The notes beneath the pieces were generated by a model, which made no database searches, had not been told where the DNA came from, and worked only from the letters and a program-made list of their open reading frames with translations. Both the position numbers and the translations under genes were made by a program. Shown piece by piece: positions 16,034-40,216 of a stretch of DNA of 40,216 nucleotides; positions within the stretch are counted from its first letter, which is position 1; every line of letters begins with the position of its first letter. The stretch is from positions 1 to 40,216 of the IMG/VR virus record IMGVR_UViG_3300049459_000161; one strand, 5' to 3'. This DNA is from a virus.

Positions 16034-16070
16034 AAAGGGTCACAAGCCGAAACTTGCAACCCTTTGATTT
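16034..16070. terminator. Hairpin near attP, possible bidirectional terminator
   Basis: AAAGGGT pairs with ACCCTTT across an interrupted inner stem (CAAG/CTTG), followed by GATTTT on the + strand and an A-rich upstream flank. It would end rightward transcription from the lysis side and leftward transcription from the integrase. Confidence 0.5.
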
Positions 16071-16257: not shown

Positions 16258-17355
16258 CTATTTTGTTGCTCTGGCGGACTTTGTCCTCCGTCGGTCGTAC
16301 ACCTGCGCCACCATCCGGCCATCCTTGTGGCCTGTGGCATCGGTAATTTTCGCGTCCCCTTCCTCCATTCTGTCGGTGACGGCGGCTGGCCGCATGTCGG
16401 CCAGTGTGAACCTGGTAAATGCGACACCATCCTTTTTCGCCTGAGTGGCGCAGTGCGCCATCAGGCGCCGCAGATTGGTGTTGAACCCACTTACCGTGTA
16501 CGGCTGCCCGCTCGTGTTGCCAAAAACGTAGATGCTCGTTGTGCGCTGTATCGCCAGCGCCTCAGCCACCGCGCTGCGCAGCTCCGGTGACCAGCGTATG
16601 AGCTTGTGCCGCTGCGCCTGACCGCCCTTGCGCTTGCCGATGGGTAGATGTATGCCGTCGTCCGTGACGCCTTGGCGCACGAGCCAACGCATTTCGTCCG
16701 GCCGACTGACCGTGAGGTAGGCGACCTGTAAGCACAACGCGACGGTCACATATGCGCCGCCACATGCGCGCGCCACCCGCATCAACATAGCCAGCTCGTC
16801 CGGGCCGACATATTTATCCTTGGGCCGCGTTTTGTTGTATTTGATCCCCCTGCACGGATTTTCTTCCAGTTCACCCAGCCGCCGGCCGTACTCCAATACC
16901 GCTGAGAGTAGTGCGATTTCTTTGTTAGCCTTGGCTGGCGCGCCTTTCGCAGCGCGTCCGGCCAAGTATTTATAAATGTGGACAGGTTTGATCTGACTTG
17001 GCTTCACTTTTCCGAATGACATAAGCAGCGGACGCTGCTCGTCCTTATTTACCTTCAGCGTGCTTGCCGCCTTCCGATCCTCGCTGTCGAGCGGCATGCC
17101 TTCTTGCCAGGCAAAATAGAGCTTGAACAGATTTTCCGTCGATCCGACCAACGGCACCTCGCCGTTCAGCAAATTTGCCCGCTGCATGGCGTCAGCCTTG
17201 ATTGCTGCAACGGCATCCTTGTCGGAAGTCGCCGCGCTCAACCGGAACGCCCAGGTGCCATCCGGCAGCTTGTAGCCATAGCTGGTTTTGAATTTCCCTT
17301 GGCGCGCATACAGGCGGAAAGGGAGCCCATCGGGCGATTTGCGCCGGCCGATCAT
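16258..17355 (-). CDS. int: Tyrosine integrase (365 aa)
   Basis: A site-specific recombinase with an N-terminal arm-binding part, a SAM-like core-binding domain (about 75-165) and a catalytic domain. Catalytic residues visible: Arg218 (TVSRPDEMRW), Arg322 (FTLADMRPAAVT), His343 (TGHKDGRM) and Tyr353 (QVYDRR). The first position of the HxxR box is Leu rather than His, a variant common among phage integrases. It is encoded beside the tRNA-His attP, so it is the integrase for the lysogenic cycle. Its start overlaps the stop of the upstream DUF4224 gene (ATGA), so both are co-translated. Confidence 0.92.
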   Translation of the reverse strand: MIGRRKSPDGLPFRLYARQGKFKTSYGYKLPDGTWAFRLSAATSDKDAVAAIKADAMQRANLLNGEVPLVGSTENLFKLYFAWQEGMPLDSEDRKAASTLKVNKDEQRPLLMSFGKVKPSQIKPVHIYKYLAGRAAKGAPAKANKEIALLSAVLEYGRRLGELEENPCRGIKYNKTRPKDKYVGPDELAMLMRVARACGGAYVTVALCLQVAYLTVSRPDEMRWLVRQGVTDDGIHLPIGKRKGGQAQRHKLIRWSPELRSAVAEALAIQRTTSIYVFGNTSGQPYTVSGFNTNLRRLMAHCATQAKKDGVAFTRFTLADMRPAAVTDRMEEGDAKITDATGHKDGRMVAQVYDRRRTKSARATK

Positions 17356-17582
17356 GCGGTAAACATGCTGAAATCGGGTTCAACGCCGTCGGTGGCCTGG
17401 GTCTGCTGGAGTGCGCCCGACATGCGGGCGTCATGATAGGCGCGGCTCACGCAGGGGAAGCCGCGCAAGTTCGGCTCAAACGGCCACGTGTTGCGTTGCA
17501 AATATCGACGCATGCAGGCGAAGCTGGTCGGCGCGCAGCCGATTAGCGTGGCTAATTCTTGCGCACTCAGATAGTTGTTCAT
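17352..17582 (-). CDS. DUF4224-like protein, excisionase candidate (76 aa)
   Basis: A 76-residue protein (MNNYLSAQELATLIGCAPTS) with the winged-helix-like start of DUF4224 proteins: an LSAQEL helix, FACMRRYLQRNTWPF, then a GFPCVSR strand. Genes of this family commonly lie directly upstream of phage integrases and probably direct excision, although that role is inferred. An AGAGGA site precedes the start. It overlaps the integrase start by four bases. Confidence 0.75.
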   Translation of the reverse strand: MNNYLSAQELATLIGCAPTSFACMRRYLQRNTWPFEPNLRGFPCVSRAYHDARMSGALQQTQATDGVEPDFSMFTA

Positions 17583-17658: not shown

Positions 17659-17904
17659 CTAGGTTGCTTCCGGCGCTAGTGTTATTTCGCTGGCAGGAAT
17701 TGGGATGGGGTTGCCGCAGAGGTAGACAGTGGTTTCCACGTCGCCGCCTGAGAGTCCCGCCTGCATCTGCTGGATGAAGCACGGCTTACCGTCGTGCATG
17801 ACCCTCTGTGCCTTGTAGATCGCCCGCAGCAACATCTGATCCCTCGTGAAAGCTGCGGCCGTGGCCTGTTGCGACACGCTCATGCGCATTTCATTCGCTC
17901 CCAT
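17659..17904 (-). CDS. Protein of unknown function after the DGR reverse transcriptase (81 aa)
   Basis: An 81-residue protein whose start overlaps the end of the reverse transcriptase gene by 14 bases, so it is the last member of the DGR operon. It starts MGANEMRMSVSQQATAAAFT; in-frame ATGs at 17889 and 17883 are alternative starts, and 17889 has GGGAG eight bases before it. The middle (LLRAIYKAQRVMHDGKPCF) is helical and the end (TVYLCGNPIPIPASEI) beta-like. I do not recognise it. Conservation beside other phage DGRs would be needed to give it a role. Confidence 0.6.
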   Translation of the reverse strand: MGANEMRMSVSQQATAAAFTRDQMLLRAIYKAQRVMHDGKPCFIQQMQAGLSGGDVETTVYLCGNPIPIPASEITLAPEAT

Positions 17905-19003
17905 GGCTCCTCCTATAGGTTTTGGTCAGTGCCTTGTTGACGCTGTGGCCGCGCTGCAGCACGGCGCGCGCCAGGCGAGCGCGGTCGTAGTGACTGCTGG
18001 TCGACTGGCGCAGCAGACCGAAGTAGCTGTTGGCGGATGTGTAGACGTCGGCGGGATCGATGCCGGCAATGCGGCTGACGGCCTCGTTCACGGTACGGCG
18101 CCGCGTGCGGGTATTCCATGGCCGGATGACGTGGCCGACGAAATCAACGCCGCGCGTGACGGGCTGGAGAATGGTTTTGGTAGGGTTAAGCTTTGCGTGC
18201 AGTCGCTCGGGAAGGAACGTGTCGATGCGCGCTAGCGCGGCGCCGAGCCACTGCGGCGACTCGTGCAGCAGCACGAAGTCATCAACGTAGCGGACATAGT
18301 GCCGCGCGCGCACCTGGTGCTTCGCAAACTGGTCCAGCGCGTCGAGGTAGATGTTCGCGAAGAACTGCGACGACAGGTTGCCAATTGGAAGGCCGAGGTG
18401 GGCCGGCTGGTTGGTCAGTCGCTTATGCGGCGGAACGCGATCGAGCAGCTCGGCCGCGCCGCGCAGCTCGTAGTTCTCGCGCGGGTCATGGTGCAGCACC
18501 GTGCTGGCCAGCTGCATCCACCACGGTTCACTGACCCGGGCTTCGACCTGGGCATGCAGCACCCGTTTGTCGATCGCGACGAAGAAGTTCGCCAGGTCGC
18601 ATTTCAAATACCATAGCGGCTTGGACCAGTTCTCGCTGGCACTCCGGATCTTTGCCTCCAGGCGCTGGGCCGCGTACAGCGTGCCGCGTCCAGGGATACA
18701 TGCGCAGGTGTCGGCGATGAAGCTGCTGTAGAACCGAGGGGAAATCCGGTTGTACAGCAGGTGGTGCACTACACGGTCCCGGAAGTCGGCCGCCCAGACT
18801 TCACGCGCTTTTGGGCGCGTGACGACGAAGCAGATGGATTTTCCGGGGCGATACGAGCCGTCAGTGAGCTCGTCGTGTAGATCGATCAGGTTGCGCTCCA
18901 GGCGCTCCTCGAACAGCAAGGCGCTTCTGGAGTTGCGTTTGTTGCGGCGGCAATCGAAGTACGCGACCACCAACTCCTGCAGATCGAAGTCTGCAGGAAT
19001 CAC
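17891..19003 (-). CDS. DGR reverse transcriptase
   Basis: A group-II-intron-like reverse transcriptase of the DGR clade, about 370 residues from GTG 19003. It makes mutagenised cDNA from the template-repeat RNA. Motifs, numbered from this start: the N-terminal block VAYFDCRRNKRNSRSALLFE, EVWAADFRDRVVHHLLYN, catalytic CDLANFF (Asp136), the DGR-type GLPIGNLSSQFFAN (about 204-217) with SSQ in place of the usual QG, and YVDD at 239-242. The frame is open up to an ATG at 19330 and runs through the template repeat, so the true start is uncertain. GTG 19027 (AAGG eight bases before it) and ATG 19072 are alternatives. I prefer a start after the template repeat, as in other DGRs of the order target-avd-TR-RT. 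Confidence 0.93.
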   Translation of the reverse strand: MIPADFDLQELVVAYFDCRRNKRNSRSALLFEERLERNLIDLHDELTDGSYRPGKSICFVVTRPKAREVWAADFRDRVVHHLLYNRISPRFYSSFIADTCACIPGRGTLYAAQRLEAKIRSASENWSKPLWYLKCDLANFFVAIDKRVLHAQVEARVSEPWWMQLASTVLHHDPRENYELRGAAELLDRVPPHKRLTNQPAHLGLPIGNLSSQFFANIYLDALDQFAKHQVRARHYVRYVDDFVLLHESPQWLGAALARIDTFLPERLHAKLNPTKTILQPVTRGVDFVGHVIRPWNTRTRRRTVNEAVSRIAGIDPADVYTSANSYFGLLRQSTSSHYDRARLARAVLQRGHSVNKALTKTYRRSHGSE

Positions 19004-19293
19004 ATCGTTTTCATCTGCGGACGACACGCACCCGGCCTTCGTTCGACTTGTGGTTGTAGTTCTGGTTGCCATCGTTGAAGTTCTGGTTCCACGCGTTAGA
19101 GGGATTGGAGGCGTGCTGCGTTTATTCGTGCTATCTACGTCGCCCCGCCGAAGGCCTTGACCGATCAGCGGGAAAACTGCGCCAGGCCTGACCGGACTCC
19201 GCCGGGTGGTTCCTGTGGTGCGCATGGCGGTGGCCTTGTGAGCCAGCGGCACGACCAGATTTAAAAATCGCTCAGACATGACGGCCTTGACGG
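19003..19293 (-). ncRNA. DGR template RNA region (between avd and RT)
   Basis: This 290-base stretch between the avd stop and the reverse transcriptase start carries the template repeat and no credible independent gene. In studied DGRs the RNA containing the template repeat plus flanks on both sides, reaching into the RT gene, is the substrate for cDNA synthesis. The true RNA ends are not visible here. Confidence 0.5.
19013..19121 (-). repeat. DGR template repeat (TR)
   Basis: A 109-bp sequence aligned without indels to three copies at 19678, 22156 and 22855. On the - strand it is rich in AAC codons: read in the frame of the targets it gives SNAWNQNFNDG followed by NQNYNHKSNEG and RVRVVRR. 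There are about 32 adenines on that strand. In all three variable copies every substitution falls on one of them, and none falls on C, G or T. It lies between avd and the reverse transcriptase, the classic position. Confidence 0.95.
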
Positions 19294-19650
19294 TCACATA
19301 GCGGGCGACGATGCGGAGTGCTTGCGCCATCCACCGGCCTGCCGGCCGATCTTCGCCGTAATGCCGATCGCCTTGGCGTACTGACCTTTCGAGATAAGCC
19401 CCAGGTCGACGGCGAGCCGGAACAGCAGCTCGGTGACCTGTAGCCGCTCCAACAGCATGTCGAGGTGCGGCACCTTGTCCCGCGCGCAGTTCGCCTTATA
19501 GACGAGCAGCGAGAGGTCCAGGCATTCGGCGTTGATCTTCTGGCCGACCGTCGTCTTGTAGTCGCGGCGCATGTTCTTGATCAGCTCCATGGCCAGCAAC
19601 ATCAGTTCGTAGGTCAGCTTGTAGATCGGCAGTTCGGTGTGGAGGGCCAT
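19294..19650 (-). CDS. avd: Avd, DGR accessory variability determinant
   Basis: A 118-residue, almost wholly helical and basic protein (MALHTELPIYKLTYELMLLA, IKNMRRDYKTTVGQKINAEC, HLDMLLERLQVTELLFRLAVD, GQYAKAIGITAKIGRQAGGW). This is the four-helix bundle of Avd, which forms a basic pentamer, binds the reverse transcriptase and the template RNA, and is needed for retrohoming. It lies between the third target gene and the template repeat, as in the Bordetella phage BPP-1 cassette. I see no clear ribosome site before ATG 19650, which lies 13 bases after the stop of the target gene; coupled translation is possible. Confidence 0.9.
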   Translation of the reverse strand: MALHTELPIYKLTYELMLLAMELIKNMRRDYKTTVGQKINAECLDLSLLVYKANCARDKVPHLDMLLERLQVTELLFRLAVDLGLISKGQYAKAIGITAKIGRQAGGWRKHSASSPAM

Positions 19651-19663
19651 ATAAATTACTGAA

Positions 19664-20071
19664 TTACTGAATGATTAATCTGCGGACGACACGCACCCGG
19701 CCTTCGTGCGACTTGTGGCCGTAGTACTGGTGGCCATCGTGGAAGTACTGGCCCCACGCGGTAGAGGGAACGGAGGCGTGCTGCTCACCGGACCAATGCC
19801 AGTACGGCTCGAACTCCTCCTTCAGGTTCGCGAACAACAACGACTGCTCGCGGCGCGTCGGCAGCTCGCCGCCGGCATCGACCGCGAATTTCTTTGCTTG
19901 ATCCCAGGTCAGCTTTTCACCCTTGCCCGGCAACAGCACCAGGTGGATATCAGGCTCACCGTTCTTGCCGAGCAGCAGGCCGGCATACAGCTCACCTTCG
20001 CGCAAGTGCTGCGCCAAGAACTGCGCCTTCGCCTCGCGCATGCCCTGCACTACGTTCGTTTCTTTGTTCAT
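19664..20071 (-). CDS. DGR target protein 1, short C-type-lectin-like protein (135 aa)
   Basis: A 135-residue protein ending in variable repeat VR1. The N-terminal half (MREAKAQFLAQHLREGELYA, LLLGKNGEPDIHLVLLPG) leads into LTWDQAKKFAVDAGGELPTR and FEPYWHWSGEQHAS, the DUF1566/CLec-like scaffold that displays the variable residues. The C-terminus is HKSHEGRVRVVRR plus LIIQ. Compared with the other two targets it is shorter and lacks the GGGYFSG-type N-terminal domain. It has no signal peptide or membrane helix, so it is cytoplasmic or virion-bound. AAGAAG precedes the ATG. It sits directly upstream of avd. Confidence 0.85.
   Translation of the reverse strand: MNKETNVVQGMREAKAQFLAQHLREGELYAGLLLGKNGEPDIHLVLLPGKGEKLTWDQAKKFAVDAGGELPTRREQSLLFANLKEEFEPYWHWSGEQHASVPSTAWGQYFHDGHQYYGHKSHEGRVRVVRRLIIQ
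19678..19784 (-). repeat. DGR variable repeat 1 (VR1)
   Basis: About 107 bp aligned without gaps to the template repeat. Twelve substitutions, all at template adenines (coding strand). Homology ends two bases earlier than in VR2 and VR3, since the last two bases differ in a non-adenine way. The variable codons change Asn positions of the template to Val, Thr, Gly, Tyr and His among others. Confidence 0.93.
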
Positions 20072-20147: not shown

Positions 20148-20258
20148 CTACCACCAGTTCCAGATCACCAAGGCGATGAACAGGCCGTAGGTCAGGGCGA
20201 TCTCGATCCAGATGGTGCGGCGGTAGTTATGATCTTTCTCGGCCGGCGGCTTAGTCAC
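20148..20258 (-). CDS. Small single-pass membrane protein (36 aa)
   Basis: A 36-residue protein from GTG 20258: a charged start ([13 protein letters not shown]) followed by one hydrophobic helix ([19 protein letters not shown]) to the end. Its start overlaps the last codons of the HD-hydrolase gene by eight bases, suggesting coupled translation. No function is recognised; small tail-anchored proteins of this kind are frequent in early phage operons. Confidence 0.55.
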
Positions 20259-20850
20259 AATCGCCTCCCTCGGTATCAGGGAGATTGGCGTGCTGCAGGG
20301 CCACCAGTTCGTAGTAGCGCCGCAGGAACGCAGCCTTGGCCTCGCGCGGCGCCAGTGGTGCAATCGGATCAGGCAAGGGGTGGATGCCGACAAGACACGC
20401 CCACTGCCCAGCGCCGGCCGGCATCAGGTCGCGCTGCTCGGTGGCCAGCAGCACCATGTCTGCCGTCTTGATCTCGGCCGGCATGACCGGGCTGACGCCG
20501 AAGCGGGTGAGCACTGCGTACTCCACAGCCTTCTCGATCACCTTGTAGTCGGGCAGCATGGCCTTCAGCGGGCGGGAGACGTCGCCGATGAATGCTTCCG
20601 CCGCATCGTGCAGCAGGCCCGCCAGCGCGTGCTCAGGCGCCACAACATGGCTGACCAGCACCGAGTGCTGCGCAACCGAGTAAAACTCGCGCACGTGACC
20701 CGTAAAGCGGCACACGTGGGCCAGCGCGTGGGCGACGTCCTCGATGTCGAAAACGGAGTCCGCTGGCGTCACGAAGTTGAAGTAGTTGCCTGATTGGGTG
20801 AAGATGTCAGGGCGCATTGGCGCGCCGACGAAGTTGGCGTGGCCGCTCAT
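20251..20850 (-). CDS. HD-domain phosphohydrolase (YfbR-like 5'-nucleotidase family)
   Basis: A 199-residue protein with the HD metal-binding signature: His62 (QHSVLVSH), His81-Asp82 (LLHDAAEAF) and Asp131 ([11 protein letters not shown]). The context [17 protein letters not shown] is typical of YfbR-like enzymes, which remove phosphate from deoxynucleoside monophosphates. In a phage it could adjust dNTP pools or clear a signalling nucleotide; that choice is inference. The longer open frame upstream lies within rdgC. The ATG at 20850 overlaps the rdgC stop (ATGA). It is a member of the leftward operon that ends with the DGR reverse transcriptase. Confidence 0.85.
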
Positions 20851-21746
20851 GCCTTTGCCTCCCCGCCCAGCGCCTCGACCACCCCGGCCAGCAACTTGGC
20901 CAGCTCGCCGGTCATCAGCACGAAGTCGCCATCGAAGCGCTCGTCGTCGTTCTTGGTGCTCGATTCCTTTTCCGCGATCACATCCAGCGGCTTGATGCCC
21001 TTGATCGCCAGCGATTCGGTCAGCACGAAGGAGATCTTGCTGTCCCAGGTCATGGCCAGGCGGGTGCACTGCTTGCCGCCGGCGATGTGGCGGCGTACTT
21101 CGTCCGCTTCCAGCGTGTGGCGCACATAGCGCACGGCGGCCTTGCTCTCGCCGCTGGCGCGTAGTTCGGTGTCCATGTCGACCGTGAAGCCGGCCGGCGC
21201 GTCGTCCGCCTGCAGCCACTCGGTCATCACGCCCACCGGCGAGCGCTGCACGCGCAGGCTTTCCAGTGGCAGCTTGTCGACCGCCTTGAGCAGAAGTTTA
21301 ATCACTTCGTCAGCCTTGGCCGGGCTGGCCGCGTCGACCACCAGCCAGCCGTTGACCGGATCGATCCACACGTCGGTGGTGGCTGCGATGCTGAGCGCGC
21401 GCGGCAGCAGTTCATCAGCGATCCGCTCCTTCAGCTCCTTCATTGCCTTCTTGCCGGGCATGAAACCCTGCGCATCCTTCATTTCCTCGGCGCGCTTCGT
21501 GGCCAGCTGGTTGACCGCCTTGGCCGGGATCAGCTTCTTCTCGGTTTTCAGGCGGAGCAGCATCTGGCGGTTGACGCTATGCACCAAGTCTCCACCCTCG
21601 CGCGGCGGGACCCATCCTTGACGCATCAAGTCGTTGCTCTCGGCCGGCACGTACCAGTGCGGCGCCAGCGACTCGACCAGGTCGGCGACGGACATCGGCC
21701 AGTTTTTCGGCAGGCAGTAAATCTGTAAATTCTTGAACCAGGACAT
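20847..21746 (-). CDS. rdgC: Recombination-associated protein RdgC
   Basis: A 299-residue protein matching RdgC in length and pattern: [75 protein letters not shown]. RdgC forms a DNA-encircling ring and restrains RecA-mediated recombination. Phage copies may protect phage DNA or shape recombination during replication. In this genome it stands between the DGR target genes and the DGR core, so it may act on cDNA homing or keep the near-identical repeats from recombining with each other; both ideas are inference. The region GAGAGATCGCC before the ATG is a modest ribosome site. Confidence 0.88.
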
Positions 21747-22144: not shown

Positions 22145-22777
22145 CTAAATGGGCAATCTGCGGACGACACGCACCCGGCCTTCGTTCGACTTGCGGTTGT
22201 AGTACTGGCCGCCATCGCCGAAGCCCTGGTACCACGCGTAAGAGGGATTGGAGGCGTGCTGCGTGCTGGACCAGTACCACCAGTCTTCCACCGCATCAGC
22301 GCCGCCTTCGCGGAAGCTATCGATCGCGGTCTGCGTCGGCACCTCGTCGGCGTAGGCTTCGCCCATCGGCACGCTACTCGGATTGATGCCGTCCTCCCCA
22401 TCAGCGTAGTTTTCTTGACCGGTCGGCTTGAAGGCGCGGTATTGCAGCTCCTGTTCGTCGCGGCTTGGGATGTACCAGTCGCTGTAGCCGTTGATCGTCA
22501 GCGCCATGGCCGCCTGGGCCAGCTCGCTGCCGGCGCTGGCCAGCGCCTCGGTATTGGCCTGACCGTCGCCGCGGTGCTTTGCGCCGTCGACCATCGTCGG
22601 CTGCGACTGCAGCTTGCCGCGCAGCTCGCCGGCGGCGCCGGCCGTGATCAACGCGAATCCCTTGCCTCCGATCTGGGTGATGCCGGTGAAGAAGCCGCCG
22701 CCGAACGGCGTGCCGATGACGGTCGGGATGGCCTCGGCGACGAGGGCAGGGGATGCGGCGGCGACAGCAGTGCTCAT
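22145..22777 (-). CDS. DGR target protein 2, DUF1566/C-type-lectin-like (210 aa)
   Basis: A 210-residue protein ending in VR2. An N-terminal beta domain (IGTPFGGGFFTGITQIGGKG, FALITAGAAGELRGK) is followed by the DUF1566/FGE-like lectin fold: INGYSDWYIPSRDEQELQYR, then VEDWWYWSSTQHAS and the variable end RKSNEGRVRVVRRLPI. It is a paralogue of target 3, with nearly the same domain order. I chose the second ATG (22777) because GGAG stands six bases before it; the first ATG (22789) has no site. No signal peptide or transmembrane helix is seen. The ligand of the variable surface is unknown. Confidence 0.88.
   Translation of the reverse strand: MSTAVAAASPALVAEAIPTVIGTPFGGGFFTGITQIGGKGFALITAGAAGELRGKLQSQPTMVDGAKHRGDGQANTEALASAGSELAQAAMALTINGYSDWYIPSRDEQELQYRAFKPTGQENYADGEDGINPSSVPMGEAYADEVPTQTAIDSFREGGADAVEDWWYWSSTQHASNPSYAWYQGFGDGGQYYNRKSNEGRVRVVRRLPI
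22156..22264 (-). repeat. DGR variable repeat 2 (VR2)
   Basis: 109 bp aligned without gaps to the template. Ten substitutions, all at template adenines. It is the copy closest to the template, which may mean the most recent or least selected event. Immediately downstream it shares about 14 further bases with VR3 that are absent from the template, which may define the homing-initiation side. Confidence 0.95.
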
Positions 22778-22806
22778 GGTGTACTCCATAGGTTTGGCGA
22801 GGGAAG

Positions 22807-22843: not shown

Positions 22844-23656
22844 CTAAATGGGCAATCTGCGGACGACACGCACCCGGCCTTCGTTCGACTTGCGGCTGCA
22901 GGCCTGGCTGCCAGCGTTGAAGCCCTGGAGCCACGCGGTAGAGGGATCGGAGGCGCGCTGCGTGCTGGACCAGTACCAGGCGTCAGCCAGCGCATCTACG
23001 CCGCCGGAACGGAAGTTCGCGGCGATGGTCTGGACCGGGAAATCCTTGGTGTACAGCGCGCCCACGGGGCTGCTGCTCGGGTTATCGCCGTCGCCGCTTG
23101 TGACGGCATTGCGCTGGTTGGTGGGCTTGAGGTTGCGATACATCAGCTCCAGTTCGTCACGCGATGGGATATACCAATCCTTGTGACCACCGATGGCGAG
23201 GTCCATCGCCTGCGCCGCCAGCACGCTGCCGGCCGCGACCATCGTCAGCGTGTTGCCGGCGCCGTCGCAGCGCGATACCGGGGCTGCAGGGCCGCTGTAG
23301 TCGCGGTTCCACACGCCGGTCAGCTCGCCCTCGGCGCCGGCCGTAATCAACGCGTAGCGCTTGCCCTCAACGGTGATGACGCCGGAGAAGTAGCCGCCGC
23401 CGAGTGGCGCGCCGAACAGCATGCCGTCGACCTGGTGTTCAATGCCGATGCCCAACTGGGCAATCAGGTCAGGGGATGCGGTGATGATGCGCTGGTCGGC
23501 GTCGAGCACGATCAAGTGCTGGCCAGCGCGGTCGGTGTACTTGGTGAAGCCTTCCCACGCCGAGGCGACGGCTAGGCCGGTTATGGTGCGGTTACCCAGC
23601 TTGGCGCTGTAGGTGCGTTCTTCGGTGAAGCGGAGTATTGCGGCTTGGTGGGACAT
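22844..23656 (-). CDS. DGR target protein 3, DUF1566/C-type-lectin-like with N-terminal extension (270 aa)
   Basis: A 270-residue protein, first gene behind the operator-controlled leftward promoter. Residues 1-75 (MSHQAAILRFTEERTYSAK, GLAVASAWEGFTKYTDRAGQ, LIVLDADQRIITAS) are an extension not found in target 2. The rest parallels target 2: FGAPLGGGYFSGVITVEGKR, HKDWYIPSRDELELMYRNLK, DAWYWSSTQRAS, then the variable end RKSNEGRVRVVRRLPI. ATG 23656 is preferred over 23668 because GGAG lies six bases before it, the same arrangement as in target 2. No export signal is seen, so the protein acts in the cell or on the virion. Confidence 0.88.
   Translation of the reverse strand: MSHQAAILRFTEERTYSAKLGNRTITGLAVASAWEGFTKYTDRAGQHLIVLDADQRIITASPDLIAQLGIGIEHQVDGMLFGAPLGGGYFSGVITVEGKRYALITAGAEGELTGVWNRDYSGPAAPVSRCDGAGNTLTMVAAGSVLAAQAMDLAIGGHKDWYIPSRDELELMYRNLKPTNQRNAVTSGDGDNPSSSPVGALYTKDFPVQTIAANFRSGGVDALADAWYWSSTQRASDPSTAWLQGFNAGSQACSRKSNEGRVRVVRRLPI
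22855..22963 (-). repeat. DGR variable repeat 3 (VR3)
   Basis: 109 bp aligned without gaps to the template. Fourteen substitutions, all at template adenines; the most diverged copy. Template Asn codons become Asp, Thr, Leu, Gly, Ser and Ala among others, and a Tyr codon becomes Cys. Confidence 0.95.
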
Positions 23657-23690
23657 CTTGTTCTCCATCGGGTGGTGAGTCGATGAGAGA

Positions 23691-23718
23691 ACTATACGCG
23701 AATGGATAATTATTGCAA
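23691..23718 (-). promoter_or_regulatory. Leftward promoter of the DGR target operon
   Basis: On the - strand TTGCAA (23713-23718) and TATAGT (23691-23696) are separated by 16 bases. The predicted start lies about 30 bases before the target 3 ATG, leaving room for its GGAG site. The -10 is inside one copy of the 19-bp operator and the -35 abuts a second, so bound repressor would block RNA polymerase. Confidence 0.65.
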
Positions 23719-23764
23719 TACGCGAATGAATAATTTGTTGTATTTTTTATCCATAGTCGTATAG
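23691..23764. promoter_or_regulatory. Three repressor-type operators in front of the DGR operon
   Basis: Copy B1 (23691-23709) is ACTATACGCGAATGGATAA, an exact reverse complement of the operator next to the Cro-like gene (25930-25948). B2 (23718-23733) is ATACGCGAATGAATAA. B3 (23747-23764) is TTATCCATAGTCGTATAG, differing from the switch copy at three of 18 positions. Three sites at one promoter resemble a lambda-type operator set. Confidence 0.75.
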
Positions 23765-23815
23765 CGGGCTGGTGGAGATGGTAGTGCCGATACCTCTAGA
23801 TCTGTGTCACTGGGC

Positions 23816-24397
23816 TCAATCCTGCGCCGCTTGGACCTGGACGGCTTCTATAAAAGCATTGATCTTTCCTTCAACGCCGGCGGCGCTGCGATCAAATGCG
23901 AAGACTTGCTTTCCTCGCGATTGACTCGCAAAGAACCATTGGCCGGATCCACGTGTCGGCTCAACCATGTAAATCACATCGGATCCCGTCGCCGGCGCGA
24001 TCGAGCCGGCCATGGTATCCATGTTGACCAGTTGAACCTCGCGATAGATATTTCGCTTTGTGATCGCTTCGTAGAAGACCTTCACTCCCCGGTAATTTGC
24101 CGAATTTATGTTTTCCAGCATTTCCTTGCCTAGGCCGGATGGAGGACTTCCGTTTTGAGCTTGGTACCAGCCACTACTTGCCGCATTCAGTGCCGCCAAA
24201 GTAGGCACTCCGAATAGTAGCTTTTTGTTGCTAAGCGGCTCAGAGAGGGGAGTAACGTGGCCCACGGCATCAGAGTAGGTTTTCGCGACTGCAGCTTGGA
24301 ACGCCTCCTGAGAATTGTACTTCGTACCTTCAAAGGTGTAATTCGCAGCGCACCCAGTCACAAACACTGCAACGAGAAGAAGAAACAATTTATTCAT
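23816..24397 (-). CDS. Putative lipoprotein, moron candidate (193 aa)
   Basis: A 193-residue protein with a lipoprotein signal MNKLFLLLVAVFVTGCAAN (lipobox VTGC, Cys16), followed by a soluble domain (YTFEGTKYNSQEAFQAAVAK, KVFYEAITKRNIYREVQLVN, AFDRSAAGVEGKINAFIEAV). It overlaps the upstream lipoprotein gene by eight bases. Base composition is clearly lower in GC than the flanking phage genes, and position and direction (behind the repressor gene) suggest expression from the prophage. A host-surface function in the lysogen is likely. I do not recognise the family; its reading as an envelope-associated factor rests on the signal only. Confidence 0.75.
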   Translation of the reverse strand: MNKLFLLLVAVFVTGCAANYTFEGTKYNSQEAFQAAVAKTYSDAVGHVTPLSEPLSNKKLLFGVPTLAALNAASSGWYQAQNGSPPSGLGKEMLENINSANYRGVKVFYEAITKRNIYREVQLVNMDTMAGSIAPATGSDVIYMVEPTRGSGQWFFASQSRGKQVFAFDRSAAGVEGKINAFIEAVQVQAAQD

Positions 24398-25076
24398 TTG
24401 ATGAGCCTCCGATTGATATGCATTTTTTAAGGCTGGTTTTAAATTTTGGAAGATTCGTTACTGAACATTCAACCATCTGATCGGTGGGCTTCGATTGCAG
24501 CAATTCTTTTGGGGCGTCTGTGAGCTCGGCGGTGAATCCCGTTACGTATCGTTGTCGAAAAATGTCCAAGGAGTCTTGGCACACGGACTGCGGGATCTTT
24601 TGAATCGCGGGAACTGAGACGCATACGCCTACAGGATGGCGGAAAGTATCGGATTGCACTACGTCGTAGTAGCTAATTTCCCCGTCTAAGCGTTTCACCG
24701 CGTAGCGGAAATGGAATTTTGACTGACCTGGTTGATCGAGAGCGGAGCCTAGTGCCGCACCTAGCAGAGTCATGCCGAGCTGATTTTTCGCGGAATAATT
24801 CCCTGACTTGAGGGCGTGATCGATGTAACCGGCATTTGCCCCTGCGGCGCCCAGCGCAGACCCCGCATTCGTTCCGGGCGTCGACTCGTCGGTTCCCTGA
24901 TTATCGATAATGACGCCGAACGACGTCATCGGTACTGGGGCCACGACGAACCGGGATTGCACAATATCGCGCTCTCGTTGGGAGAGATTTCGCCACACGG
25001 CCTCGTTAATTTGGAGCTGCTCCTGCGCAGTGCAGTTACTACAGAGGGTTGCCAGCAGAATTATTCTTCGGAGCAT
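24390..25076 (-). CDS. Exported or lipoprotein-like protein, moron candidate (228 aa)
   Basis: A 228-residue protein with a signal sequence MLRRIILLATLCSNCTAQ; a lipobox-like SNC places Cys15 after the hydrophobic core, though it is atypical. The middle has a glycine/alanine-rich stretch (GTNAGSALGAAGANAGYI, LGMTLLGAALGSAL) reminiscent of glycine-zipper lipoproteins. The end has several cysteines (CVSVPAIQKIPQSVC, MVECS, KKCIS) suited to disulfides outside the cytoplasm. It has its own promoter candidate and is co-transcribed with the next lipoprotein. Together they look like a transferred moron. Function unknown. Confidence 0.7.
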   Translation of the reverse strand: MLRRIILLATLCSNCTAQEQLQINEAVWRNLSQRERDIVQSRFVVAPVPMTSFGVIIDNQGTDESTPGTNAGSALGAAGANAGYIDHALKSGNYSAKNQLGMTLLGAALGSALDQPGQSKFHFRYAVKRLDGEISYYDVVQSDTFRHPVGVCVSVPAIQKIPQSVCQDSLDIFRQRYVTGFTAELTDAPKELLQSKPTDQMVECSVTNLPKFKTSLKKCISIGGSSNE

Positions 25077-25093
25077 GTGGGCTCACTACCGTA

Positions 25094-25143
25094 TTCACCA
25101 ATGAATAGTGATTATATGCAAATATATCGCGCCAACTCTCACG
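25094..25143 (-). promoter_or_regulatory. Candidate moron promoter
   Basis: On the - strand a consensus -10 TATAAT (25111-25116) sits in an AT-rich stretch (GATATATTTGCA before it) between the repressor stop and the first lipoprotein gene. A convincing -35 is not seen at the usual distance; TTGGCG stands 13 bases away. An independent promoter is typical of prophage morons. Confidence 0.45.
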
Positions 25144-25166
25144 AAATGTAACCGAGATGTCGTGGG

Positions 25167-25865
25167 TTAGATCCGTTCAGTTTCTCGCTTCACTATGCGG
25201 CCGATGATCATGCACTCGCCATCACGACAGCTCTTACGCTTGTGCCGAACCTGATCTGCGTTATCAGAAGTCAGCCACCATTCACCACGATCTCGTGCGA
25301 GCCTCTTCACCACAGCCTGGCCCTCGAAATTGAACGCGAACACTGCACCGTCTTCCATCTTGGTATCTGCCGTATTTATGATGACTTGATCACCTTCGTA
25401 AAGATTGGGTTCCATGCTGTCACCCTTGATCCTGATCGCGATAAGCCGCTCAGGTATGTAGCCGTGCCTATCGACCCAATTTCGGGAAATGCTGAGTTTG
25501 CTGCCGTCGTAGATTTCTGGGACTGTTTGGAAGCTTGTCATACCCGCCGAAAGAACTAACTGAACCTTGGGAATTTCGTAGAAGTCCGGATCGTTTGGTT
25601 CTGGGACAACGACGTTAGTAAATTCATGTGGCGAGATGCCTGCTGTCCGACGCTTTGGCTCCCTTCCTTCATGAAGCCATTCGAAGGTCACATTGCAGGC
25701 GTTTGCGAGCTGAATGATGGTTTGCGTTTCTGGGCCGCGCTTTCCACCACCCTTTAGTATGCGGTTTATCGTCGGCTGCGGCACACTTGATGCGCGCGCG
25801 AGTGCACTCTGCGAGTCGAAACCAGCTTCGCTCATTGCCTCATCTAGTCGGGTGGCGATTGTCAT
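25167..25865 (-). CDS. CI-like repressor with S24 (LexA-type) autoprotease domain
   Basis: A 232-residue repressor. The N-terminal helix-turn-helix spans about 5-55 (SQSALARASSVPQPTINRIL). The C-terminal S24 domain shows the Ala107-Gly108 cleavage site (LSAGMTS), Ser150 (KGDSMEPN) and Lys187 (VVKRLAR), so it should be inactivated by RecA-stimulated self-cleavage on DNA damage. I start it at ATG 25865: the upstream in-frame codons (from 25952) run through the operators. A -10 TATAGT ends six bases before this ATG and no ribosome site exists, so the message is probably leaderless. It is divergent from the Cro-like gene. Confidence 0.92.
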   Translation of the reverse strand: MTIATRLDEAMSEAGFDSQSALARASSVPQPTINRILKGGGKRGPETQTIIQLANACNVTFEWLHEGREPKRRTAGISPHEFTNVVVPEPNDPDFYEIPKVQLVLSAGMTSFQTVPEIYDGSKLSISRNWVDRHGYIPERLIAIRIKGDSMEPNLYEGDQVIINTADTKMEDGAVFAFNFEGQAVVKRLARDRGEWWLTSDNADQVRHKRKSCRDGECMIIGRIVKRETERI

Positions 25866-25871
25866 GCGCAA

Positions 25872-25901
25872 ACTATACGTGCGCGTATAGTCAATTCGCA
25901 A
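25872..25901 (-). promoter_or_regulatory. Promoter of the repressor gene (leaderless)
   Basis: On the - strand TTGCGA (25896-25901) and TATAGT (25872-25877), 18 bases apart. Six bases separate the -10 from the repressor ATG, so transcription should begin at or next to the start codon. Confidence 0.6.
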
Positions 25902-25920
25902 ATAGCTATTCATTCGAGTA

Positions 25921-25948
25921 TTGACTTGCTTATCCATTCGCGTATAGT
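25921..25948 (+). promoter_or_regulatory. Early rightward promoter (leaderless Cro-like mRNA)
   Basis: TTGACT (25921-25926) and TATAGT (25943-25948), 16 bases apart, with six bases to ATG 25955. No ribosome site fits, so the first gene is predicted to be read from a leaderless transcript. The -10 lies inside operator A3. Confidence 0.7.
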
Positions 25949-25954
25949 TCAATC

Positions 25955-26206
25955 ATGGATACCAAAATTACGAATCTCCTCCAGGAGATTAAGAAAGCTA
26001 CCGGTTGGAGCGAGCCGAAGATTGCCGCTGAACTGGGTACTTCGCAGCCGACGGTGAATCGCATTCTCAACGGCCAAGACGAGTGCAAGGTAAGCACGTT
26101 CCGTGCAATCACCGAATTGCACGCTTCCGTCGTGAAATCGAAGGCTGCATACCGCGCTTCCGATGCAGCTGGGACTAATGGCGGTGACCCAGTCGGCCCT
26201 CCATGA
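25955..26206 (+). CDS. Cro-like repressor (83 aa)
   Basis: An 83-residue DNA-binding protein: helix-turn-helix at about 12-45 (TGWSEPKIAAELGTSQPTVN) and a short flexible tail. It is the first gene of the rightward early operon and divergent from the CI-like gene, the Cro position. It should bind the same operators and shut down the repressor promoter after induction. The start codon lies directly behind the -10 element, so translation is probably leaderless. Confidence 0.85.
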   Translation: MDTKITNLLQEIKKATGWSEPKIAAELGTSQPTVNRILNGQDECKVSTFRAITELHASVVKSKAAYRASDAAGTNGGDPVGPP

Positions 26207-26240: not shown

Positions 26241-26359
26241 TTATTCGTCACGATTAAAAAGTTGCATATTGGCATTTGTTTTATGGATGCATAGTTATCA
26301 GCAGCGCGAACTATCACATCTCTTTTCTTCAATCTTGCATTTGTTTAAAGGTTCTGCAA

Positions 26360-26803
26360 ATGAACATTCTCGACACCCTGTACAAGACCGCACACGACAG
26401 CCCGGGCGGATGTGAAGCGCTAGCGCGACGCCTGGGTATGTCCGCGCAGGTGCTGCGCAACAAGGTCAATCCGAACACTGCTTCGAATCGCGCAACGCTG
26501 GAAGACGTGGATCGAATCCTCGGCGTGACTGGCGACCACGCCGTGCTGCACTCCCTGGCGCGCAACCACGGCTATGTGTGCGTCCGTGTCGACGACACGG
26601 CGATCGCCTCCGACACCGCCGTGCTCGAACTCGTCATGAAGGTGTGGGCCGCGAGCGGCGAGGTGGGCGCCGAGGTGCACGCAACGCTGGCCGACGGCAT
26701 CGTCGAGCAGCACGAGATCGAGCGCGTCAAGGCGGCGGTGTATCGCGTCAACCGTTCGCTGAACGAAATGGTCAGTCGCCTCGAAGGCATGGTCCAGAAG
26801 TAA
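26360..26803 (+). CDS. CII-like phage regulatory protein (147 aa)
   Basis: A 147-residue protein of the phage regulatory CII family common in beta- and gammaproteobacterial phages: MNILDTLYKTAHDSPGGCEA, LARRLGMSAQVLRNKVNPNT, EDVDRILGVTGDHAVLHSLA. An N-terminal DNA-binding helix set is followed by a long helical C-terminus. It probably decides between lysis and lysogeny by activating the repressor. AAAGG lies eight bases before the ATG; the upstream part of the open frame is not used. It is the second gene of the early operon. Confidence 0.82.
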   Translation: MNILDTLYKTAHDSPGGCEALARRLGMSAQVLRNKVNPNTASNRATLEDVDRILGVTGDHAVLHSLARNHGYVCVRVDDTAIASDTAVLELVMKVWAASGEVGAEVHATLADGIVEQHEIERVKAAVYRVNRSLNEMVSRLEGMVQK

Positions 26804-40069: not shown

Positions 40070-40090
40070 GCGGCGGGCCGGTCCCGCCGC
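40070..40090 (+). other. GC hairpin after the capsid gene
   Basis: An 8-bp stem GCGGCGGG/CCCGCCGC with a five-base loop, without a T tract, lies between the capsid stop and the 58-aa gene. It may dampen read-through from the capsid gene or protect its mRNA 3' end. Confidence 0.5.
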
Positions 40091-40216
40091 ACCCCATTGG
40101 AGCGAACACCATGGCAAAGAACCCACAAAAAGACGGCGACATCAAGGCCCGCGTACTGGTCGACTGCGACCTGGGCAAGTGCAACGACGTCGTGCTGATC
40201 TCGGCGGCGCAGATCG
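40090..40216. repeat. Terminal direct repeat, copy 2
   Basis: This is identical to bases 1-127. It joins the capsid end of the late operon to the gene that starts at 22, giving a continuous and sensible gene order, which supports a circular molecule or a circularly permuted genome. Confidence 0.93.
40111..40216 (+). CDS. Partial second copy of the 58-aa post-capsid gene (contig end)
   Basis: This is the first 106 bases of the gene at 22-198, cut by the end of the contig. It is not a duplicate gene but part of the terminal overlap. On the closed molecule there is one copy, starting 56 bases after the capsid stop. Confidence 0.9.
   Translation, partial: MAKNPQKDGDIKARVLVDCDLGKCNDVVLISAAQI

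Follow-up and report, generated by a model that had tools for sequence, protein, structure and literature searches.

The DGR of the phage represented by IMG/VR record IMGVR_UViG_3300049459_000161 is, judging from its sequence and those of its relatives, very probably a cargo of the early leftward operon that is gated by the phage's own CI-type repressor. The earlier note on this DNA had proposed repressor control of the DGR operon, and the proposal is supported by the identity of the operators, their spacing, their overlap with the promoter and, above all, their co-variation with the repressor across relatives. The same wiring appears to recur in dozens of relatives with different repressors. 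The whole 40,216-bp record was analysed (hereinafter, the window). It carries a 127-bp terminal direct repeat (1-127 and 40090-40216) and thus is effectively a complete circular genome of ~40,089 bp, so that the operator scan described below covers the whole phage genome.

Operators in the immunity region and at the leftward promoter

Two clusters of three operator sites each were identified, one in the gap between cI and cro (OR1-3) and the other on the leftward DGR promoter (OL1-3), with nearly equal spacing of the sites (24 and 33 bp in OR, 24 and 31 bp in OL; Table 1). As previously noticed, the operator at the Cro promoter (25930-25948) is present as an exact inverted copy (23691-23709) on the -10 element of the promoter preceding DGR target 3 (TATAGT, 23696-23691). 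The identity in fact spans 21 bp rather than 19, TTATCCATTCGCGTATAGTTC at 25930-25950 on the plus strand being the reverse complement of 23689-23709. In 20,000 trials in which Markov-shuffled cI-cro DNA was compared with the OL region, the longest chance match was 16 bp and the mean was 7.5 bp.

With up to three mismatches, the operator motif occurs at four places only in the 40,216-bp record, namely, the two exact copies, 23716-23733 (2 mismatches) and 23747-23764 (3 mismatches), and the reversed control pattern, at the same tolerance, occurs at zero places in the whole record. Thus, of the two further variants reported near the target 3 promoter, the one at 23747 stands and the other starts at 23716, not 23718, whereas two sites between cI and cro (25906-25923 and 25873-25890) had been overlooked. 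A symmetric 18-bp weight matrix, which was derived from the six strong sites themselves, scores seven operator-like sites at 16.7-24.9 bits, compared to 10.6 bits for the best other window in the record; when the sites are left out one at a time, five of the six still fall within the top six windows, and OL3 ranks seventh. Confinement of the motif to two regions, as originally suggested, accordingly holds genome-wide at up to three mismatches, but not for the weaker matrix site at 25091-25108.

The S24 repressor retains the LexA-type self-cleavage residues, with both the Ala-Gly site and the Ser/Lys pair intact, a configuration consistent with SOS induction. Rightward from OR follow cro, the CII-like gene and other early genes. 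The two small lipoprotein-like genes located between cI and OL have no family match; possibly, these are lysogenic conversion genes subject to the same repressor via the seventh site. The GC3 value is 0.55 in the cI block vs 0.72-0.88 from target 3 to the reverse transcriptase (RT), which fits an imported immunity cassette.

Table 1 Features of the immunity region and the leftward operon (coordinates in the window).
Feature	Coordinates	Strand	Evidence or remark
CI-type repressor, HTH + S24 domains	25167..25865	-	AG 107-108, Ser of GDSM, Lys of VVKR present
Cro-like repressor	25955..26206	+	phrog_6831
CII-like activator	26276..26803	+	phrog_101, E=2e-35
Two small putative exported/lipoprotein genes, cI to OL (rexAB position)	23816..25076	-	GC3 0.55, like cI
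OR3 operator CTATACGTGCGCGTATAG	25873..25890	.	Weight matrix, highest window of record, 24.9 bits
OR2 operator CTATTCATTCGAGTATTG	25906..25923	.	24 bp centre to centre from OR1
OR1 operator TTATCCATTCGCGTATAG	25930..25947	.	On PR -10
PR promoter TTGACT-16-TATAGT	25921..25948		OR1 on its -10
Weaker seventh operator-like site GTATTCACCAATGAATAG	25091..25108	.	16.7 bits; just upstream of lipoprotein gene 24390-25076
OL3 operator TTATCCATAGTCGTATAG	23747..23764	.	31 bp from OL2
OL2 operator TTATTCATTCGCGTATTG	23716..23733	.	24 bp from OL1
OL1 operator	23692..23709	.	Exact inverted OR1; 21-bp identity 23689-23709
PL promoter TTGCAA-16-TATAGT	23691..23718	-	Covered by OL1/OL2
PL leader hairpin CATCG...CGATGGAG	23651..23687	-	Overlaps Shine-Dalgarno of target 3
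DGR target 3, Lcl_C/C-type-lectin-like, first operon gene	22844..23668	-	VR 22963-22855
DGR target 2 (Lcl_C)	22145..22789	-	VR 22264-22156
RdgC-like protein	20847..21746	-	PF04381, E=1e-105
HD/5'-deoxynucleotidase-like ORF	20251..20853	-	NF003009, E=0.004; weak assignment, start approximate
DGR target 1, short Lcl_C protein	19664..20071	-	VR 19784-19675
Avd accessory protein	19294..19650	-	PF22296, phrog_3206
RT-15 RNA (Rfam RF03018)	19119..19310	-	184.8 bits; directly 5' of TR
Template repeat (TR)	19013..19121	-	36/37 TR/VR mismatches at TR adenines
Reverse transcriptase open frame	17891..19330	-	PF00078, phrog_1423, E=2e-120; true start uncertain
Small excisionase-like gene	17352..17582	-	Position and size only
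Tyrosine integrase, last operon gene	16258..17355	-	PF00589, phrog_1
Intrinsic terminator, end of leftward operon	16034..16065	-	14-bp stem, then TCCTTTTTTT

Organization of the leftward operon

The genes follow one another leftward from OL in the order target 3, target 2, a small ORF, RdgC, the HD-like ORF, target 1 and Avd, after which come TR, RT, a small xis-like ORF, the integrase and the terminator (16065-16034). The xis-like gene shows no family match. The locus has the hallmarks of a DGR, that is, RT together with Avd, adenine-directed TR/VR differences, and C-type-lectin-like targets with the VR at the C terminus; the TR/VR pairs look active, with all but one of the mismatches between TR and the three VRs falling on TR adenines. 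All three VRs are located in the early left operon, and no further VR was detected in the record, tail genes included. Among the PADLOC and NCBIfam models, RT matched generic reverse-transcriptase models, and none gave a function for the DGR targets or the lipoprotein-like genes.

The RT frame runs through TR, giving an N-terminal extension; an extension of this kind, through TR, has been reported for the RT of phage ACA1 (PMC10612066). The RT-15 RNA lies between avd and TR and ends at the TR start, which suggests that this orphan motif forms the 5' portion of the template RNA of the DGR.

Consensus-only scans for promoters and terminators identified PL as the sole minus-strand sigma-70-like site (at least 9/12) in the 16.0-23.7 kb region and placed the U-tract terminators predicted on this strand beyond int, with none from PL to the int end, so far as consensus signals go; the operon would then be read as a single transcript. 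This layout, along with the tight packing of target 1, Avd and TR, argues against an arrangement in which the operators govern target 3 along with the early genes while an internal constitutive promoter also drives Avd-TR-RT, so that mutagenesis continues in the lysogen and only the upstream targets are gated. We consider such an arrangement unlikely, although it has some backing: the 180-bp gap before target 1 and the 191-bp gap that separates target 2 from the following ORF could house non-consensus promoters, in Burkholderia phage Magia a terminator is annotated just before the second target, the one nearest Avd, and DGR activity is seen in uninduced hankyphage cultures (this phage is also produced spontaneously; PMC12135933). 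Transcription of Avd-TR-RT in the lysogen could start from internal promoters that lack a sigma-70 consensus, which would count against repressor gating of the DGR.

The leader hairpin of the PL mRNA has a folding energy of -5.0 kcal/mol in this phage and of -7 to -12 kcal/mol in nine relatives, and the leader (CATCG...CGATGGAGA...ATG) is kept directly downstream of operators that change. Translational control of the first gene by this hairpin is possible. The 5'-terminal CCATCG...CGATGGAGA hairpin is also seen in L040, L041, L042, L045, L057, L061, L065 and L125, and it is present in stretches with no detected DGR (L005, L007, L010, L022, L028, L037 and L038). A 15-base pattern of the leader hairpin, tried in a scan of the viral collection, was too short for specificity and was discarded.

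Co-variation of operators and repressors across relatives

Relatives of the RT were drawn from IMG/VR and GTDB genomes. Among the 90 loci with a detectable repressor, the repressor gene upstream of the DGR shares the strand of RT in 85 cases and lies on the opposite strand in 5. Operator co-variation was assessed in 59 loci with independent cI-cro DNA (58 DGR loci and Pseudomonas phage D3), by comparing each phage's own cI-cro region with the 2.5 kb after cI and using the cI-cro regions of the other 58 phages as controls. The own cI-cro region gave the best match in 33 of the 59 loci and placed third or better in 42 (Fisher p about 3e-29); an earlier run with 42 loci gave the same picture. Most of the best own matches (26/33) are inverted, as divergent promoters predict, and a promoter-like pair (at least 9/12) directed toward the DGR is present at 19 of the 33 matched sites, compared to 0.8% of random windows. 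TR/VR pairs were detected in 58/58 DGR loci, with 1710 of the 1772 mismatches on TR adenines.

About 17 of the 59 loci (such as L060, L078, L171 and L181) show no convincing OL/OR match, and neither do the named phages Cruim01 and LPPA56 by this method, which operators of 14 bp or less escape and in which some contigs are fragments. Phage D3, in which no DGR was seen, scores low despite OL-like sites identical to its annotated operators at 12 and 11 of 14 positions. In about a dozen loci (this phage, L040, L041, L042, L065, L069, L076, L088, L096, L118, L120 and L160, with the OL match itself weak in L118 and L120), no more than 0.8 kb separates the first VR from the best OL match, and a target is therefore probably the first operon gene. 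In other relatives, several genes, in some cases several kb, separate OL from the first target. Some relatives, such as L057 (4152-9546) and L076 (6761-9487), contain four VRs in one leftward operon.

Several relatives represent natural immunity swaps. The Rugamonas aquatica prophage L124 is closely similar to this phage in Avd (99% identity), RdgC (91%), CII (94%) and target 3 (78%), yet its cI and cro have no similarity to those of this phage, and its operator, at the target-3 promoter as well as between cI and cro, is TTTATCTTTTTGGTAAAGT-like; the viral locus L040 agrees with this prophage in every value compared. Likewise, TTTAGCTAATCGCTATA-type sites occupy both places in Duganella flavida (L126) and the viral locus L041, and in Oxalobacteraceae strain BJB404 (L125), the sites before the target are of the AGTCCGACT type, the operator of its repressor group. 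Locus L042 is another such swap. The converse case is L065, where cI and cro are 68% and 60% identical to those of this phage and the operator of this phage is kept, with the target only 48% identical over 66 residues. Because of these swaps and the converse case, we conclude that the operators track the repressor rather than the DGR.

Wherever the operator was exchanged, cro was exchanged together with cI, and lambdoid Cro proteins bind the operators of CI. The site might therefore be bound mainly by Cro (or another regulator), and the operon shut late in infection rather than in the lysogen. This appears very improbable: CI and Cro share operators in lambda-type systems, so that Cro would add to the control by CI rather than replace it, and a triplet of sites over PL fits cooperative binding by CI. 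Finally, although the immunity block has foreign codon usage and is exchanged as a cassette, a process that homologous ends could aid, the readings of the inverted 21-bp repeat as a recombination scar or a chance similarity without a regulatory role are effectively ruled out by the co-variation of OL/OR with the repressor, given that unrelated phages have, on promoters in these two positions, pairs of sites that differ from phage to phage but match each other within a phage.

Structure and possible role of the DGR targets

The AlphaFold2 model of target 3 (mean pLDDT 81.8, mostly above 90 from about residue 81; the row for L122 was left out of the input alignment) is closest, among PDB structures, to the C-terminal domain of Legionella Lcl (8q4e, probability 1.00, E 6.7e-3). 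Hence target 3 is predicted, with good confidence, to be a C-type-lectin-like Lcl domain, with the VR at its C terminus. Among viral structure models, orf68 of phage D3 is close to target 3. No obvious signal peptide was seen in the targets on inspection by eye. These features, along with the place of orf68 as the first gene left of cI in D3, hint at an early, non-virion role for the DGR targets; some viral structural matches of target 3 are tail-fibre-like proteins that carry the same domain, so the targets may instead function in the virion. According to surveys, phage DGR targets are mainly tail proteins (Roux 2021, PMC8144416; PMC12629997), and second VRs near counter-defence genes have been noted (PMC12629997).

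A tentative generalization, which may well not hold, is that in an entire branch of phage DGRs the proteins diversified are not receptor-binding proteins but small early ones, often the first PL product, with an action inside the host cell or upon it (take-over, exclusion and counter-defence are examples). The repressor would then confine mutagenesis to infection and induction and freeze it in lysogeny, with one variant set per lysogen.

Proposed regulation of the DGR

Taken together, it seems highly likely that the two clusters correspond to OR and OL in an immunity system of the lambda type and that the DGR is a cargo of the PL operon, which CI silences in the lysogen and which is released on CI loss or in a new infection. 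In the lysogen, CI dimers on OL1-OL3 would occlude PL, keeping targets 3, 2 and 1, RdgC, Avd, the TR RNA, RT and xis-int silent. Once CI is cleaved after DNA damage, PL would fire alongside PR. Given that the site pair is the ordinary OL/PL of such a system, the DGR should also be on early in a new infection, when CI has not yet built up, so that variants could arise ahead of the establishment of lysogeny, which would then freeze them. Mutagenic retrohoming would be concurrent with early DNA replication, and the variants would then be packaged or frozen on return to lysogeny ('write when awake, lock when asleep'). Retrohoming efficiency has been reported to depend on the direction of replication (PLoS Genet 2026, PMC12875486).

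If this scheme is correct, the DGRs of a large group of phages are governed by a simple on/off switch, and an experimenter can flip it by removing the repressor, so that the timing of mutagenesis and the roles of early non-tail targets become testable. Such a switch would explain a mutator lying idle in the resident prophage and would place its activity in the replication phase.

Comparison with known phages and DGRs

In phage lambda, cI and cro are divergent around three operators, and a second cluster of three operators lies on the leftward early promoter; the PL operon includes a recombination-type gene, with xis-int at its far end, and rexAB is located between cI and OL. The phage described here similarly has divergent cI and cro with multiple operators, a second cluster of like sequence on the leftward early promoter (OR/OL triplets), a CII-like gene, a recombination-type gene, extra genes between cI and OL, and a leftward operon that ends with xis-int (int by family, xis by size and position). 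Unlike in lambda, the left operon carries a DGR with three C-type-lectin-like targets, and the PL mRNA opens with a hairpin that overlaps the first Shine-Dalgarno; neither an N antiterminator gene nor nut sites were noticed. In Pseudomonas phage D3, orf68, structurally related to target 3, is the first gene after cI and is preceded by OL-like 14-mers; no DGR was seen in the D3 stretch examined, so this protein type also occurs in PL operons lacking a DGR.

Bordetella phage BPP-1 resembles this phage in having Avd, adenine-directed TR/VR changes and a target of the C-type-lectin type. However, BPP-1 diversifies a virion protein, and a tropism-switching DGR of the BPP-1 type would be expected to have a tail or receptor-binding target in the late region, whereas none of the three VRs here is in a tail gene and all belong to the early left operon. 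The RT gene of vB_BbrP_003, a relative of BPP-1, lies ahead of a lysozyme gene within a same-strand gene run.

To our knowledge, DGR regulation has been little studied. In a literature search, with most subscription papers outside its reach, no report of a DGR controlled through OL/PL was found. The temperate Burkholderia phage Magia has a similar leftward array, consisting of the lectin-fold targets 57 and 47, a nuclease, RecT, Avd, RT and integrase (PMC7883833, MT701587), and weak repeats of its own operator precede target 57 (locus L120, 4333-4372). Magia differs in its repressor and in the terminator annotated inside the array; the paper describes the DGR in the leftward array and is silent on regulation (PMC7883833).

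In the Bacteroides hankyphage, also a temperate phage with a DGR tied to a CI-like repressor, silencing of this repressor, RepC_HP, raises the expression of most phage genes as well as DGR mutagenesis, with DGR activity found in the resulting virions (PMC12135933). Repressor-linked DGR expression is therefore not unprecedented, and the earlier statement that no described DGR was known to be under direct control of a prophage CI-type repressor was too strong. The hankyphage, however, is Mu-like and transposable, its target is a tail fibre, and no operator has been described at its DGR promoter (PMC12135933), whereas in the phage described here the operators sit on the DGR operon's own promoter. 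What is new is the direct OL/PL placement of the DGR, the conservation of this placement, and the targets outside the tail genes.
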